Shown piece after piece: positions 5,794-12,995 of a DNA stretch of 35,045 nucleotides (within the stretch, counting starts at the first letter, position 1; each line of letters opens with the position of its first letter). The stretch is from the NCBI GenBank assembly GCA_017404665.1, contig JAFRBX010000029.1, forward strand, positions 1 to 35,045, in the 5' to 3' direction. Position numbers and translations under genes: made by a program. This DNA is from Ruminococcus sp. Lineage in GTDB: Bacteria > Bacillota > Clostridia > Oscillospirales > Acutalibacteraceae. Under the pieces are notes generated by a model. That model had not been told where the DNA came from. It did no database searches and saw only the letters and a program-made list of their open reading frames with translations.

Positions 5794-6759
5794 ATGAAAA
5801 AGAAGAAAAATGTATTTGCCGTTATTGTCACACATGTACGGCATTTTCTGAAAAAGAGCTATCGCGATAATATATCCGCGCTGGCGGGACAGTCGACGTT
5901 TTTTCTCCTGCTGTCGGCGGTGCCGTGTATTTTGTTCGCCTTTTCGGTGTTCTCTATCCTGACGGGCAAGACCTTCGACAGCGTGTCGATCCCGACAGCC
6001 GATTTGCCGGAGAACTCGGCGCTGTATCCGTATTTTCGGGCGTTCTTCAGCTTTGTGAAAGAATCCGTTCAGCGCTCCGGCTCAGGTACGACGATCATCA
6101 CGGCGATCGTAATGCTGTGGTCGGCGGGAAAAGGGATGTACTGCATCACCGAGGGCATCTCGCGCGTATATCGCCTGCCGAACCGCCGCTTTTGGCTGTT
6201 CAAGCGCATCTACGCCATGGGATATACTGTGGTGATGATGCTGATCGTATTGCTGTGCGTTGTTGTGACGGCGGTTAACTTTTTCTTTGCAGGCACCGTT
6301 CTCAAGCTGTGGGAAGTGGTTCAGGTGCAATGGGCGATGCGGATTATCCTGTACATCATGCTGGCTCTGCTGCTCGCGCTGATGCTGACGCTGGCGCTGC
6401 GGTTCTATCTGCACGGTAAATTGAAGAACAAGCGCTATTGCTCCTTGCGTGCGCTGTTCCCGGGAATGCTCCTGACGGTCGTCGCGTGGAACGCTCTGAC
6501 CATCGGCGTCATGATCTATATCCGCTATTTCGCGACGTCGTCCGTTTACGGCAGCCTGAGCAGTGTGTTCATGCTGATGATATGGGCGTACTTTATGATG
6601 TATATCCTGCTGTACGGCGTTCAGCTCAACTATATCTACCGCAGACAGTTCAGCCGCAGGGGTTGGTTCAGGCGGAAGAAGAATGTGGAGAAGACGGATG
6701 AAGCTGACGGCAAAGAATTGAATGAAGCTCCTTCGGATATGCCCTCGGAACGACAATAG
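5794..6759 (+). CDS. YihY/BrkB family membrane protein
   Basis: The 321-residue protein has about six hydrophobic helices and the family pattern: an amphipathic N-terminus (RDNISALAGQSTFFLLLSA), WSAGKGMYCITEGISRVY in the first loop, and LMIWAYFMMYILLYGVQLNY near the end. The C-terminal 45 residues are charged and cytosolic. The old ribonuclease BN name for the family is generally considered mistaken, and the function is unknown. It is 48 bases after the phosphoesterase gene and ends before a bidirectional terminator. Confidence 0.88.
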   Translation: MKKKKNVFAVIVTHVRHFLKKSYRDNISALAGQSTFFLLLSAVPCILFAFSVFSILTGKTFDSVSIPTADLPENSALYPYFRAFFSFVKESVQRSGSGTTIITAIVMLWSAGKGMYCITEGISRVYRLPNRRFWLFKRIYAMGYTVVMMLIVLLCVVVTAVNFFFAGTVLKLWEVVQVQWAMRIILYIMLALLLALMLTLALRFYLHGKLKNKRYCSLRALFPGMLLTVVAWNALTIGVMIYIRYFATSSVYGSLSSVFMLMIWAYFMMYILLYGVQLNYIYRRQFSRRGWFRRKKNVEKTDEADGKELNEAPSDMPSERQ

Positions 6760-6841
6760 AAAAAGTTTTGCTGTTTGTTGAAAAGTATAGTTGGAAGCAT
6801 ACTGTTCCTTACTTAGCATGATATGTATTATACGACAAACT

Positions 6842-8079: not shown

Positions 8080-8142
8080 GCCGACCTCCTTGACGATCCC
8101 GCATTCACCTCCGCGTGATGAAAGCGCGGCACCGTGTGTATC

Positions 8143-8171
8143 ATTTTATCACACGAAAAAGAATGTGTCTA
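8143..8171 (-). promoter_or_regulatory. Promoter of the PD-(D/E)XK gene
   Basis: On the minus strand TAGACA (8171-8166) and TAAAAT (8148-8143) are 17 bases apart, about 65 bases upstream of the start codon. Confidence 0.5.
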
Positions 8172-8226
8172 CAGCATTTGGTATAGCTCACAATTTTACA
8201 GGATAAAATATAGTGAAAATGATGGG

Positions 8227-8256
8227 TTGTTTTCAGCTTATCTCATGTTGTATAAT
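8227..8256 (+). promoter_or_regulatory. Promoter of the retron ncRNA-RT transcript
   Basis: TTGTTT at 8227-8232 and a consensus TATAAT at 8251-8256 have an 18-base spacer. Transcription would begin near 8263, about 30 bases before the a1 repeat, which is where a retron RNA needs to begin. Confidence 0.6.
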
Positions 8257-8293
8257 AATAACACCATCGGAAAATGTATCAGTTTTCTGCGGT

Positions 8294-8448
8294 CAATAAG
8301 GCTTTTTGCGGCAGAGTACATCTTTGATTTGTTTCAGAGGACGGGCGGCGAGTCGCTGTCCGGGCATCACGAGAAACCGCGCATTCCGCTTGACGCGTAA
8401 TGCGACAACCGCCTGAGGCGGATAGTTAGTGCCGCAAAAGCCTTATTG
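8294..8448 (+). ncRNA. Retron msr-msd non-coding RNA
   Basis: The element is bounded by inverted repeats. a1 (8294-8313) begins CAATAAGGC and ends GCGGCA; a2 (8430-8448) begins TGCCGC and ends GCCTTATTG. They pair over 19 bp with a single extra T in a1. G8314 directly after a1 is in the position of the 2'-branching guanosine. Inside are a small hairpin with a U-rich loop, CTTTGA/TCAGAG around TTTGTT (8322-8339), and a second hairpin at 8338-8361 with CGGCG/CGCTG. Then comes a longer one, CGCATT-C-CGC/GCG-T-AATGCG (8380-8404), and CCGCC/GGCGG (8409-8421). The first two fit msr and the later ones msd. The RT gene starts 35 bases downstream of a2. Confidence 0.85.
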
Positions 8449-8482
8449 TTTCTTTCAGATCGTATTCGCGAGGTGAACGGCA

Positions 8483-9520
8483 GTGTATATCGATAAGGAT
8501 GAAGTGATCTTTGAATTCTTTGATGTGGAATATGTGACGAAGCACGGGCTGGAGCAGGCGATGGACGCGGCGGTCGCGTTTCATCAAAAGTGTCGCCTGC
8601 CGTTCTTGATGGATATCTCCCAGCTCGCGGCGTTTCTGTCTTTGGACAGGAGAGAGCTGTTTGGACTTGTCAAGCGGTGTGATACTATGTATCGCTCGTT
8701 TTTGCTGCCCAAGCGTACGGGCGGATACAGGCAGATCGATGCGCCGGCATATGAGCTGACGGCGTATCAGTATCGGATCCTGCACCGTATTCTCGGGAGA
8801 ATTCCGATTTCCCGCTATGCGACCGCGTATCACCGCGGCGCGGCGCTGACGAAGAACGCTTCGCCCCATACGGGAAAGCGATATCTGCTGAAGATCGATA
8901 TCAAAGACTTCTTCCACAGTGTCAGGCTTTCGGACGTTCACGCGAGGGTATTCGCGCCGTATTATCCCAAGCAGATCGGCTATCTGCTGTCGCTGCTGTG
9001 CTGTAAGGACGGCAGGCTCGCGCAGGGCGCGCCGACCTCTCCGGCGATCTCGAACATCGTGATGCGGTGTTTTGACGAGCCGTTCGGCGAGTGGTGTGAA
9101 AAGCGCGGTCTATCCTATACCCGCTACTGTGACGATATCACGATATCGGGCGATGTGCCGCTGTATCGCGCGCTGGAAAAGGCGAGCCTATGGCTGAATA
9201 ATATGGGCTTTACGGTCAATGAAAAGAAAACGCGGTTCATCACGAACGCCTCGCGCCAGACGGTGACGGGGCTGACCGTCAATGAGAAGGTGAACGTGCC
9301 GTCCGACTATAAGCGCAGGCTCAGGCAGGAGCTGTATTACGCGGCAAAATTCGGCGTCAGCAGCGCCGCAGATTACAAGGGACTGACCGATGCGGAGCAA
9401 TATTATCAGAGCCTGATGGGATGGCTGAATCATGTGCTGTCCGTCGAACCGGAGAACGAAAGCTTTCTCAAAGCGAAGCAGGCTTTGCGGGAGCGGTACG
9501 CTGCCGACAGAAGGATATGA
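8483..9520 (+). CDS. ret: Retron reverse transcriptase
   Basis: The 345-residue RT carries NASPH at 125-129 (the retron NAxxH motif), the catalytic Asp139 in KIDIKDFF, QGAPTSP at 181-187, YCDD at 215-218 with Asp217/Asp218, MGFTVNEKKT at 241-250, and VTG at 261-263. VTG is the retron X/Y-region signature tied to recognition of the cognate RNA. It should copy msd from the a1/a2-folded RNA to make msDNA. The start is GTG 8483, with GAGGTG at 8470-8475; no better codon exists in frame. About 70 residues precede the first RT motif, a modest N-terminal extension. It is followed 33 bases later by the WYL gene, so the ncRNA, RT and WYL genes probably share a transcript. Confidence 0.93.
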   Translation: MYIDKDEVIFEFFDVEYVTKHGLEQAMDAAVAFHQKCRLPFLMDISQLAAFLSLDRRELFGLVKRCDTMYRSFLLPKRTGGYRQIDAPAYELTAYQYRILHRILGRIPISRYATAYHRGAALTKNASPHTGKRYLLKIDIKDFFHSVRLSDVHARVFAPYYPKQIGYLLSLLCCKDGRLAQGAPTSPAISNIVMRCFDEPFGEWCEKRGLSYTRYCDDITISGDVPLYRALEKASLWLNNMGFTVNEKKTRFITNASRQTVTGLTVNEKVNVPSDYKRRLRQELYYAAKFGVSSAADYKGLTDAEQYYQSLMGWLNHVLSVEPENESFLKAKQALRERYAADRRI

Positions 9521-9552
9521 TTCGGCAGAGAATGACGGTTTAGGAGGCGCTG

Positions 9553-10617
9553 ATGTATACAAAACAACCCAAAAAGCTGGCGATCATGAATATACTGGAT
9601 ATCCTCAAGCGCTATACGGATGAAAACCACCGTCTCAGCCAAAGAGAGATACAGGATATTCTTCAGCGTGAATATGATATGAAGATCGACCGCAAGGCGG
9701 TCAAGCGCAACCTGATGAACCTGATCGAGTTCGGCTACGATATCAACTACAGCGAGTGCAGGAGAAAGTCGCGCGATAAAAACGGCTCTGAGCAGGAGAA
9801 TGTGATCCTCACCGGCTTTTATCTGGAGCGGGAGTTCACCGACAGCGAGCTGCGGCTGCTGATCGACAGCGTGCTGTTCTCCAACCACATCCCCTATCAG
9901 CAGGACAGGGAGCTGGTGGAGAAGCTGTCGGCGCTGTCGAACGTTTACTTCCGCTCGCGGGTGAAGCATATCACCCGTATGCCCGAGGACAAGACCGATA
10001 ACAAGCAGCTATTCTATAACGTGGAGCTGCTGGATGAGGCGATCGACGCCGGCCGCAAGGTGCGGTTCCGCTATCTCGAATACCGTTCGGATAAAAGACT
10101 GCATGAGCGCTGTCACCGCGACGGCAGCGTGCGCGATTATATCATCAATCCGTATCAGCTCGTCGCTAAGGAGGGCAAGTATTATCTGATCTGCAACAAC
10201 GACAAATACGACAACGTGAGCAACTACCGCGTCGACCGCATGGCGGACATGGAGATCCTGCCCGACCCTGTAAAGCCCTTCAAAGCGCTCAGGGGCTCGG
10301 ACGGCAAACCGCTCGACCTGAACGCGTATATGGAGAAGCACATCTATATGTTTTCGGGAGAGAACACCCGCGTGGTGTTCCGCGCACAGAAAAACGTGCT
10401 CAGCGATATCATCGACGTTTTCGGCAAGGATGTGAGGTTCAGCGACGAGACCGACACGCATATCACCGTCACGGCGGACGTGAACGAGCCAGCGATGGAG
10501 CAGTTCGCGAAGACCTATACGCCGTTTGTGGAGATCATCAAACCGGCTGCGCTCAGGGAAAAGATGATATATAATCTGAGTGTGGGACTGGAAAAATATC
10601 AGAATGAGGTGAATTGA
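9553..10617 (+). CDS. HTH-WYL domain transcriptional regulator in the retron operon
   Basis: This 354-residue protein has an N-terminal winged helix (about 8-60, with RLSQREIQDILQ), a WYL domain in the middle (about 155-240, with VRFRYLEYRSD and YYLICNNDKYDNVSNYRVDRM), and a C-terminal WCX-like extension. WYL domains sense nucleic acid or nucleotide ligands and often control phage-defence loci. TAGGAGG at 9541-9547 and a 33-base gap after the RT stop place it in the retron operon. WYL regulators are also common elsewhere in these genomes, so its link to the retron is an inference from position. Confidence 0.82.
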   Translation: MYTKQPKKLAIMNILDILKRYTDENHRLSQREIQDILQREYDMKIDRKAVKRNLMNLIEFGYDINYSECRRKSRDKNGSEQENVILTGFYLEREFTDSELRLLIDSVLFSNHIPYQQDRELVEKLSALSNVYFRSRVKHITRMPEDKTDNKQLFYNVELLDEAIDAGRKVRFRYLEYRSDKRLHERCHRDGSVRDYIINPYQLVAKEGKYYLICNNDKYDNVSNYRVDRMADMEILPDPVKPFKALRGSDGKPLDLNAYMEKHIYMFSGENTRVVFRAQKNVLSDIIDVFGKDVRFSDETDTHITVTADVNEPAMEQFAKTYTPFVEIIKPAALREKMIYNLSVGLEKYQNEVN

Positions 10618-10618
10618 C

Positions 10619-11377
10619 ATAAAGTTTTTTGACGAAAAAGGAAACCTCATAGACAAAGAAAGATTTATTGAACTTTACAGTAAAGATTATCTTTTGTCCG
10701 GAGACGGGCTTGTCCCCCGACTCAGACGCAGCAGTGGATATGTGGAAGATAGAATAGGCGATATCTTTAAGGGTGGAATTCAAAACCAAAGCGATGTTGC
10801 AAGAATACTCGCGTGGAAGATAGGGAAGATCAAGCACAGAGACAGTCAGGATGAACAGAAGTTCGTCTACGCGAAAAAGTGGGAGGATATTGAGCAGATT
10901 GATATTGTAAAGCTGTACAAGGACGATTTTCCAATCGGCGAAATATCATCCTACGTTGTAAGCGTCGCAAAACGTCAGAAGGACATGAAAGCACTTGCAC
11001 TGGGCGACAAGAATAAGGCTCAGAAATTCCTGAATGAAATGAAAGAAAAGGGCTTTAAGAGAATAGGCACGGTTTATATGATTACTCTGCTGTACTTCCT
11101 GTCTCGCGGCGCTTTCCCGATTTATGACAGATTCGCTATGATGGCACTGACTGCTATCTTCAAAGAAACATCGCCGATCTCCGGCAGTAAAGCGGGGATT
11201 GAAGTCAGATATAAAGAACTGCCTACGAGGGAATCAACAAGATTCTCAGGCGTCATAGATAATGAGATGGATCAATATATGGGGATGCTTAACCGCGCAT
11301 TTGGCGATGAATGGAAAACGAACAGAAAAATCGATCAAGCACTGTGGGTATATGGTCATCTGTTCAAAATGAAATAA
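10619..11377 (+). CDS. Unknown protein at the end of the retron operon, apparent ATA start
   Basis: The frame is open from 10613, directly after the TGA at 10610-10612 in the same frame. A credible N-terminus (MKFFDEKGNLIDKERF if initiated at 10619) is encoded before any standard start codon. The ribosome site GAGGTG (10605-10610) is 8 bases from ATA 10619, exactly where an ATG is expected. The first standard codon is TTG 10694, which has no ribosome site and would remove 25 residues. The product is about 252 residues. I do not recognise the family. The segment KRIGTVYMITLLYFLSRGAF followed by PIYDRFA loosely recalls helix-hairpin-helix glycosylase folds, at low confidence. It overlaps the WYL gene end region and is AT-richer than its neighbours. 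It is a candidate retron effector. Confidence 0.6.
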   Translation: MKFFDEKGNLIDKERFIELYSKDYLLSGDGLVPRLRRSSGYVEDRIGDIFKGGIQNQSDVARILAWKIGKIKHRDSQDEQKFVYAKKWEDIEQIDIVKLYKDDFPIGEISSYVVSVAKRQKDMKALALGDKNKAQKFLNEMKEKGFKRIGTVYMITLLYFLSRGAFPIYDRFAMMALTAIFKETSPISGSKAGIEVRYKELPTRESTRFSGVIDNEMDQYMGMLNRAFGDEWKTNRKIDQALWVYGHLFKMK

Positions 11378-11392
11378 TAAAGGAGAGATATC

Positions 11393-11699
11393 ATGAGCAA
11401 GGTAAAAGATTTTTTGGCGGCGACCGCTGTGGATATCGCCGTCATGGGCGAGGGCGAGAGCCTGCTGTAGCGCCATGAAGCTGTTCAAACATCACGGCGC
11501 CCGCCGTTTTGAGACCGCCTTCGATCCCGATAAGCAGGAGGCCGTCATCCGCGGCTCGATCTGCACGAGCGAGAAGGTCGCCGGCTTCAAGAATAAGGAC
11601 GACGGCACCTTCACCGAGGTCATGCTGATCCACTCGTACAAGGATATCGAACGGTTCAAGGAGAAATACGGCGTCGATGCGCTGAAAACCGAATACTGA
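11393..11699 (+). pseudogene. Small conserved-looking gene split by a +1 frameshift at a stop codon
   Basis: ATG 11393 (AGGAG 7 bases upstream) gives 25 codons ending GEGESLL, then TAG at 11468-11470. One base further, the +1 frame continues as SAMKLFKHHGARRFE to a TGA at 11697-11699. A single inserted T would account for the break, and removing it gives one protein of about 101 residues. The second half (VIRGSICTSEKVAGF, FTEVMLIHS) resembles a small clostridial protein of unknown function that I recall only loosely. It may be a true mutation, two separate ORFs (the second from ATG 11475), or recoding at CTG TAG C. A strong terminator follows. Confidence 0.55.
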
Positions 11700-11704
11700 A
11701 ATGT

Positions 11705-11738
11705 GGGATCGTGTTGCGCGATCCCTATTTCTTTTTTT
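11705..11738 (+). terminator. Rho-independent terminator ending the retron-side transcription
   Basis: GGGATCGTG (11705-11713) pairs with CGCGATCCC (11717-11725), with one G-U pair and a TTG loop, followed by a T-rich run to 11738. Confidence 0.8.
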
Positions 11739-11744
11739 AAACAG

Positions 11745-11777
11745 CCTATTGACATAGTAGGTAGATTGGGATATAAT
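11745..11777 (+). promoter_or_regulatory. Promoter with overlapping Rrf2-like operator, Fe-S operon
   Basis: TTGACA (11749-11754) and TATAAT (11772-11777) are consensus with a 17-base spacer. The dyad CCTA-N9-TAGG (11745-11761) covers the -35 hexamer, and the same 19-base stretch recurs before the sulfhydrylase gene. The arrangement predicts repression by a dimeric Rrf2-type regulator (IscR/CymR class) that senses Fe-S or cysteine status. No such regulator gene lies in the window. Confidence 0.8.
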
Positions 11778-11804
11778 AAAGCCGATTTTGAAAGGAGTTT
11801 TACG

Positions 11805-12995
11805 ATGCAGATATACGCAGATAACGCCGCGACGACGAAGATGAGCGACGCGGCGATCACAGCGATGACTGACTGTATGCAGAGCTTCTGGGGAAACCCG
11901 TCGAGCCTGTATACGATCGGGCAGGTCGCCAAGGAAAAGCTGGAAGAAGCGCGCGGGGAGATCGCGCGGATCATCAACGCAGAGCCCCGCGAGATCCTTT
12001 TCACCTCCGGCGGCAGCGAGGCGGATAATCAGGCTTTGCTCTCCGCCGCCATGATCGGGAAGAAAAAGGGCAGGACGCACATCATATCGAGCATGTTCGA
12101 GCATCATGCGATATTGCATACGCTGCAGAAGCTGGAGAAAAACGGCTTTACCATGACCTATCTGCCCGTGCATGAGAACGGTATCGTCCGGATCGAAGAG
12201 CTGGAGGACGCGATCACGGAGGACACCTGTCTCGTGACGATCATGACGGCGAACAACGAGATTGGCACCATCCAGCCGATCACTCAGATCGGCGAATTAT
12301 GCCGCAAGCGCGGGGTGATTTTCCACACCGACGCGGTACAGGCGGTCGGACATCTGCCGATCGACGTCAAGGCGCAGAGCATCGATATGCTGTCTGCGTC
12401 CGCGCACAAGTTCCACGGACCGAAAGGCGTCGGGTTCCTGTACGTCAAGAAGGGGATCGTCCTGAGCAGCCTGATCGAGGGCGGCGCACAGGAGCGCGGC
12501 AAGCGTGCCGGCACCGAAAATCTGCCGGGTATTCTGTCTATGACAGCCGCTCTGAAGGAAGCGGTCGCGGGCATGGAAGCGCATAACGTGCATCAAAAAC
12601 AGGTCAGGGACCATCTGATACAGGGTTTATCTGAGATTCCGCACAGCGCCCTCAACGGCGACGCGGTCAGCCGGCTGTCGGGCAACGTGAACTTCAGCTT
12701 TGAGGGGATCGAGGGCGAATCCCTGCTGATTTTGCTCGATCAGAAGGGCATTTCCGCTTCCTCCGGCAGCGCCTGTACCTCAGGAGCGCTCGACCCCAGC
12801 CATGTGCTGCTCGCGATCGGCCGTATCCACGACGTCGCCCACGGCTCGCTGCGGCTGAGCATCGGCGAAGAGATCACCATGGAAGAAGCGGATTATATCA
12901 TCGAGGCTGTCAAGGAGGTTGTGGCGTATTTGCGGAGCTTTTCGCCCGTCTGGCGCGATCTGATGGCAGGCAAAAAAGAATTCATCTTAAAATAG
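11805..12995 (+). CDS. iscS: Cysteine desulfurase (NifS/IscS class)
   Basis: The 396-residue PLP enzyme takes sulfur from cysteine and passes it as a persulfide to the scaffold gene next door. The PLP lysine is Lys202 in SASAHKFHGPKG, the PLP-stacking His is at EHHAIL (100-101), and the catalytic Cys324 sits in SSGSACTSGALDPSHVL, the long-loop class that serves Fe-S assembly. ATG 11805 has AAAGGAG at 11791-11797; an upstream in-frame extension to 11703 runs through the promoter and is not used. IscU follows 16 bases later in the same operon, under a promoter with the Rrf2-like operator. Confidence 0.93.
   Translation: MQIYADNAATTKMSDAAITAMTDCMQSFWGNPSSLYTIGQVAKEKLEEARGEIARIINAEPREILFTSGGSEADNQALLSAAMIGKKKGRTHIISSMFEHHAILHTLQKLEKNGFTMTYLPVHENGIVRIEELEDAITEDTCLVTIMTANNEIGTIQPITQIGELCRKRGVIFHTDAVQAVGHLPIDVKAQSIDMLSASAHKFHGPKGVGFLYVKKGIVLSSLIEGGAQERGKRAGTENLPGILSMTAALKEAVAGMEAHNVHQKQVRDHLIQGLSEIPHSALNGDAVSRLSGNVNFSFEGIEGESLLILLDQKGISASSGSACTSGALDPSHVLLAIGRIHDVAHGSLRLSIGEEITMEEADYIIEAVKEVVAYLRSFSPVWRDLMAGKKEFILK

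Follow-up and report, generated by a model that had tools for sequence, protein, structure and literature searches.

A retron of the Ec107-like kind beside a WYL-led gene pair in a Ruminococcus contig

The window examined here is a stretch of 35,045 nucleotides, positions 1 to 35,045 of contig JAFRBX010000029.1 (assembly GCA_017404665.1) from Ruminococcus sp. in the Acutalibacteraceae. It contains a retron locus, in which the gene for a reverse transcriptase (RT) is preceded by a structured non-coding RNA (ncRNA) and followed on the same strand by the gene of a WYL-domain regulator and a further gene at 10619-11377. Retrons are usually described as three-part systems, and a preliminary description of the locus had proposed that either the 10619-11377 protein or a divergently encoded PD-(D/E)XK nuclease is the effector, with the WYL protein as controller. 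The identity of 8294-9520 as a retron is strongly supported by both the RT and the ncRNA. This segment is probably a two-part Ec107-like retron, and the genes next to it appear to belong to a separate, WYL-led unit; they are probably not its toxin partners. The features of the locus are the following.

8294..8448, + strand: retron ncRNA (msr-msd), 155 nt, matched by a covariance model built without the window sequence
8294..8313, + strand: a1 arm, pairing with 8430-8448 with one bulge
8430..8448, + strand: a2 arm, pairing with 8294-8313
8314, + strand: candidate branching guanosine, the G directly 3' of a1
8483..9520, + strand: Ec107-like retron RT, 345 aa, assigned by Pfam, PADLOC, motifs and tree
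8251..8256, + strand: possible retron -10 box TATAAT, perfect consensus
8227..8232, + strand: poor -35 element TTGTTT, 3 of 6 consensus positions
9553..10617, + strand: WYL-domain regulator, 354 aa, PF13280 at 5.7e-14
10619..11377, + strand: member of a WYL-led protein family whose model resembles HhH-GPD glycosylases, no standard start codon
6880..8079, - strand: PD-(D/E)XK nuclease, PADLOC candidate PDC-S26, assigned by Pfam and PADLOC
11705..11725, + strand: terminator-like hairpin before iscS, a pattern match only

The ncRNA is bounded by the a1 and a2 arms, as first described. The arms pair over 19 nt with a single bulged T and hold a run of 13 pairs, longer than any other unbroken inverted repeat with comparable spacing in the window, against 10-11 pairs in three single-base shuffles of the window. 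The fold of 8250-8482 has a z-score of -4.6, and none of 200 shuffles folded as well. Upstream regions of 16 RT relatives from other genomes served for comparison; in the 11 closest, from which the ncRNA was excised, it measures 176-215 nt. A covariance model made from relatives, with the window left out, matches the window ncRNA at 65.9 bits (E 4.3e-18) with a runner-up at 7.2 bits, and in a whole-genome search this was the sole match at E<=0.001 among the 150 of 326 first-look candidates that were scored. In an alignment of 12 ncRNAs, built by sequence rather than fitted to structure and itself the source of the structure, 93.9% of cells pair and 32 of 41 pairs show two-sided changes. These values were reached by none of 500 shuffles, and six slid versions, all lower, gave 40-48% pairing. 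The column of G8314 is invariant in all 12 sequences, which makes this guanosine the candidate for priming.

The same model matches 13 of 13 further RT loci at E 1e-4 or better. A search of 58 loci at E below 1e-4 added L127, a locus that also holds a WYL gene, and 11 of the 18 RT loci that are partial or lie further off, and none of four viral-contig RT loci. These RTs thus share a conserved family of ncRNAs. Of two phage records that were also searched, L162 gave no match and L161 matched at 135.8 bits; at L161:3436-3629 the ncRNA accompanies a close RT in a human-gut record labelled phage (MT838960.1). There is also a weak match in a locus of the 10619-11377 family that contains no RT by tblastn (L074:4007-4097, 17.6 bits, E 0.006).

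The RT gene starts with GTG preceded by GAGGTG, and its frame is open over the full length. The motifs reported earlier, NAxxH (as NASPH), YCDD and VTG, are all readable in the translation, which matches the Pfam family RVT_1 at 7e-23. The retron type, which had been left without a certain assignment, can be named Ec107-like, a label that comes from the RT profile. RT_Ec107-like is the best PADLOC profile for the window RT (1.1e-104, 348 bits), followed by RT_III-A (295 bits), and ranks first in 10 of 10 RT relatives scanned. Retron-Eco5 (Ec107) is described in PMC6868368 as carrying YCDD and as replacing intergenic sequence away from any mobile element. The window retron has the YCDD core of this group, with the ncRNA upstream of the RT, but differs by about 40 additional N-terminal residues, which are common to its close relatives. 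Type III-A retrons, according to PMC12548924, have a phosphoribosyltransferase (PRTase) and a winged-helix protein beside the RT. Although RT_III-A is the second-best profile here, it lies about 53 bits below the Ec107-like one, the neighbours scanned include no PRTase match, and the window WYL protein matched no III-A partner profile in PADLOC. The RT phylogeny that had been suggested as a check, a tree of 37 RTs, places the window among its close relatives but resolves little else.

In the msd region the window departs from its relatives. It has no letters for helix 4 (a gap row), which is paired throughout in the other 11 aligned ncRNAs, helix 5 differs, and the arm is shorter than in most relatives. 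The end branch of the RT is also among the two longest of the close relatives (1.1, against 0.02-0.89 for the others except L045 at 1.17). A retron in decay, with a shrunken msd arm and a long-branched RT, could account for both traits, but the open RT with its catalytic motifs and the nearly perfect a1/a2 pairing make this unlikely, as does an equally short ncRNA match (147 nt) alongside an open RT in L186. The latter (L186:7877-8023) is a second retron with a short msd arm, and a WYL gene lies 1.1 kb from it.

Upstream of the ncRNA, the promoter of the preliminary description stood in part. The -10 box is perfect, but the pair at 8227/8251 is absent from a promoter scan, which gave instead an overlapping site at 8230-8259 (9/12) and, over 8080-11800, 14 sites against 4.2 in shuffles. 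The evidence for a promoter at 8227-8256 is weak.

The genes around the RT do not recur among its relatives. In an all-against-all comparison of 130 neighbours (five genes of at least 80 aa on each side of the RT, in the window and in 16 relatives), five pairs matched between loci and each family was confined to at most two of them. Among the five are an iscS pair and a nifU pair, which link L055 with the window; by eye, the neighbours of close relatives look like sugar hydrolases, NadA, MnmA, part of a transketolase and similar genes. L055 (7140-11313, genome G080) has a different Ec107-like retron upstream of a Cys_Met_Meta_PP enzyme, iscS and nifU, genes of the same kinds as those downstream of the window island. 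Wider flanks were searched in 30 other RT loci (381,328 bases), a subset of the RT hits, by tblastn and by profile: relatives of 10619-11377 and of the PD-(D/E)XK nuclease were found in none. A WYL gene, a 10619-type gene and the nuclease are all absent from 29 RT loci with 1.5 kb flanks, which overlap the 30. In the reverse direction, tblastn found no RT in 59 loci centred on a 10619-type gene or a WYL gene (653,743 bases), a set that left out L127, where WYL and RTs occur together. No recurring effector gene adjoining the RT was therefore found, either among the 16 relatives or when the window genes were compared with the 30 loci; a loose association with WYL is the exception. Apart from that association, this is largely the outcome that the preliminary description had named as refuting its reading, namely RT homologues whose partner genes do not recur. 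Neither of the effectors proposed earlier is supported by it. The 10619-11377 protein is rejected as a standing effector by its absence from the 30 RT loci and by the lack of RTs in the 59, and the nuclease by its absence from the 30.

The 10619-11377 gene had been called unrecognised, and its protein indeed stays below curated cut-offs throughout Pfam and NCBIfam and has no PADLOC match. Its proposed start did not hold: the frame has no ATG, GTG or TTG before 10694, position 10619 being ATA and 10613 ATT. Several relatives start with ATG at, or almost at, the place aligned with the ATA, so the start in the window is either unusual or lost. An alignment scan of a species-genome collection gave 46 loci of the family, mainly in Clostridia and other Bacillota with two in Eggerthellaceae, one in Synergistaceae and one in Phycisphaerales, and an open frame of at least 60 aa was recovered in 45 of them. 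Among the 39 loci that offer 1.5 kb or more of space, 19 have a WYL relative ahead of the gene in the same orientation, and in 11 of these 19 it lies within 60 bases; three loci have two copies of the 10619-type gene. Single-protein queries of phage, plasmid and IMG/VR collections returned no relatives. The WYL gene and 10619-11377 thus look like a separate unit, which is repeatedly found without a retron.

A predicted model of 10619-11377 resembles Ogg2/MutY-type HhH-GPD glycosylases along nearly its whole length, which makes HhH-GPD a candidate fold for it. Asp170, invariant in 42 of 42 family members, stands just before helix 171-181, behind a GIG turn, and is a candidate counterpart of the catalytic Asp that follows the hairpin in glycosylases. 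Bifunctional HhH-GPD members carry a lysine in the hairpin, and the hairpin of 10619-11377 differs in having none. A first model (7 rows; predicted local distance difference test, pLDDT, 78) gave no clear Foldseek match, and a BFVD structure search gave none. No likeness was found at the level of sequence: phmmer and hmmsearch found no glycosylase match in the PDB, no glycosylase family is among the Pfam families listed for 42 members (25 of 30 families), and hhalign against five Nth-like proteins gave a probability of 0.2%. Sequence homology of the family to glycosylases was rejected for want of support from the PDB, Pfam and hhalign. Hits to PF22175 in 5 of 60 genomes were likewise dropped as a link, being Nth-like by eye. 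Brig1, according to PMC11078745, is a defence DNA glycosylase of the uracil DNA glycosylase superfamily; it shares with the 10619-11377 model the idea of a base-removing defence protein but has another fold. It is very unlikely that WYL and 10619-11377 make up an undescribed two-gene unit for defence or DNA damage, mostly of Clostridia and with a highly divergent HhH-GPD fold, which in this genome controls or has been captured by a solitary Ec107-like retron and supplies a base-removing effector.

The WYL gene, whose identity was borne out by PF13280, keeps varied company. A search from the WYL side found 17 WYL places in 16 of 200 genomes, and only the window and genome G188 have a 10619-type gene behind WYL (no WYL frame was called in L138). 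The cargo that recurs in pooled WYL loci consists of a DUF2779 protein in 13 loci and an AAA protein in 10, one member of each having been checked; cargo groups were formed by single linkage, and two short members of the DUF2779 group are possibly chance joins. A family without a name, marked by the words AQKWVNM and PIDS, occurs in six WYL loci (for example L130:3294-4103, L129:4820-5608 and L103:4414-5085), and three members scanned have no Pfam match; by eye, it may be a second glycosylase-like cargo. The nuclease is as first described (PDDEXK_4 at 2e-37; PDC-S26 over residues 7-395, its full length, at 4.9e-111). Its family is present by profile in 3 of 13 WYL loci (L134:5956-7131, L135:5930-7117 and L136:2770-3876), directly behind WYL in L134 and L135, and in none of the 46 loci of the 10619 family or the 30 RT loci; tblastn at E 1e-5 was too coarse for it and found none in the 59 loci, while Pfam, PADLOC and the profile found these three. 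A PDC-S26-type nuclease may therefore be WYL cargo. The WYL family is not specific to the retron of the window. From its cargo, and from the lack of RTs in the 59 loci, it looks like a general island regulator, with the 10619-type gene and the nuclease as its usual company rather than the retron's.

Several points weigh against a retron fully separate from these genes. The wide-flank set is a part of the RT hits, and some of its 30 loci end at contig ends, L038, L043 and L045 being shorter than 9 kb in all. WYL relatives lie near the retron in three of the 30 (L127, L184 and L186), where chance would give 0.012-0.015 (an estimate based on 16 WYL places across 199 genomes of the family); since L127 was chosen for the wide fetch by its WYL hit, the stricter count is 2 of 29. 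In L127 (5570-7757, genome G021) the WYL stop at 6622 is followed by an Ec107-like ncRNA match at 6625-6801 and then a broken RT; some 4 kb further on, this locus has a second, open RT of 532 aa. In L184 (6456-12049, genome G377) WYL, an AAA ATPase, DUF2201, two small genes and the retron share one strand, with WYL 3.4 kb off, which may make the retron the last element of a cluster led by WYL. In L186 the WYL gene is divergent from the retron. Such recurrence suggests that retron and WYL share islands or control, and it counts against full independence of the retron. In the window itself 32 bases separate RT and WYL, the terminator scan listed nothing between them, and the two are possibly on one transcript; read-through from the retron into the WYL unit could couple both in this genome.

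These observations would also suit a WYL protein that acts as an island-level switch, controlling both the retron and the gene downstream of WYL while standing outside the structure of the retron. Such a switch is compatible with a two-part retron and is a possibility of some weight, though doubtful on balance. Besides the three loci, the tree favours it: the four rows labelled as having WYL nearby are scattered and need four changes, no better than shuffles. BrxR, a WYL-domain regulator of defence islands described in PMC9122601, likewise sits beside varied genes, some of defence kinds; the window protein is like it in domain and in its varied neighbours, and no operator was found for it. Counts of dyads and k-mers in 37 WYL upstream regions gave no shared operator, and WYL relatives adjoin many other genes too. 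An operator common to the WYL promoters and the retron promoter was rejected, since only -10-like words were commoner than in shuffles. The WYL protein possibly carries a winged helix, and its role as a controller, as the preliminary description had it, remains plausible on the strength of the three loci, though no shared operator was found; it is probably a repressor or an activator of the following gene.

The close packing of the window genes further recalls a tripartite retron, in which ncRNA, RT, WYL and the glycosylase-like protein work jointly and the complex of RT and multicopy single-stranded DNA (msDNA) restrains the protein until phage attack. The four lie on one strand with gaps of 32 bases (RT to WYL) and 1 base (WYL to the 10619 gene) and are followed by the terminator-like hairpin; L127 has its ncRNA directly behind a WYL stop, and capture of a new neighbouring system by a retron has been proposed for Retron-Sda1 in PMC12548924. 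A joint system is nevertheless quite unlikely, given that the 10619-type gene occurs in none of the 30 RT loci and the RT in none of the 59. In addition, the same paper reports that the experimentally tested neighbour of Retron-Sda1, HipA/DUF3037, defends without RT or ncRNA. Retron-Sda1 is a parallel in that its RT and ncRNA lack the usual effector and adjoin a separate defence system; it differs in the neighbour, which in the window is WYL plus a putative glycosylase-like protein. Among the literature titles listed on retrons with WYL, glycosylases or WYL in phage defence, Clostridia retron ncRNAs and orphan retrons, none describes this gene set.

The two-part retron would function as follows. 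The ncRNA would be made from a promoter near 8227-8256, of which only the -10 box is good, and would fold through the a1/a2 arms and be bound by the RT. The RT would prime from the guanosine beside a1, probably G8314, and, by copying the stretch that precedes a2, make a short branched msDNA, leaving an msDNA-RT complex with a presumed role in defence. The WYL protein would regulate the gene or genes behind it, forming its own unit with 10619-11377; together with the PDC-S26 nuclease this unit would form a small island ahead of iscS-nifU, with the retron as a co-resident. The hairpin at 11705-11725 may close the unit ahead of iscS (terminator-like patterns number 7 against 3.4 in shuffles). With no fixed protein partner in the loci seen, the effector, if there is one, would be encoded elsewhere in the genome, which the locus tests allow, or be a host protein. 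Sensing or toxicity would then fall to a host protein or to a partner encoded elsewhere; alternatively, the retron may serve some other purpose.

The island is bordered by iscS, which probably starts at an ATG near 11806 instead of the listed GTG at 11703 and has a perfect sigma-70 consensus ahead of it at 11749-11777 (12/12, spacer 17). A 74-aa open frame at 11475-11699, between iscS and the 10619-11377 gene, has no Pfam match. In three of three same-genus genomes a gene of 145-147 aa (iscR by eye) stands ahead of iscS with no island genes there, and a clean empty site for the island was seen in none of the three.

The retron of the window is best regarded as an additional member of the Ec107-like group that resides in a small island led by WYL. 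The WYL-led family to which 10619-11377 belongs, with its 46 loci and no match in Pfam, PADLOC or NCBIfam, is a fair candidate for defence assays. As with Retron-Sda1, position alone does not make a neighbouring gene the effector of a retron. What msDNA may do without a linked effector is the question raised by these Ec107-like retrons, whose RNA is well conserved and which have no fixed partner in the loci seen.

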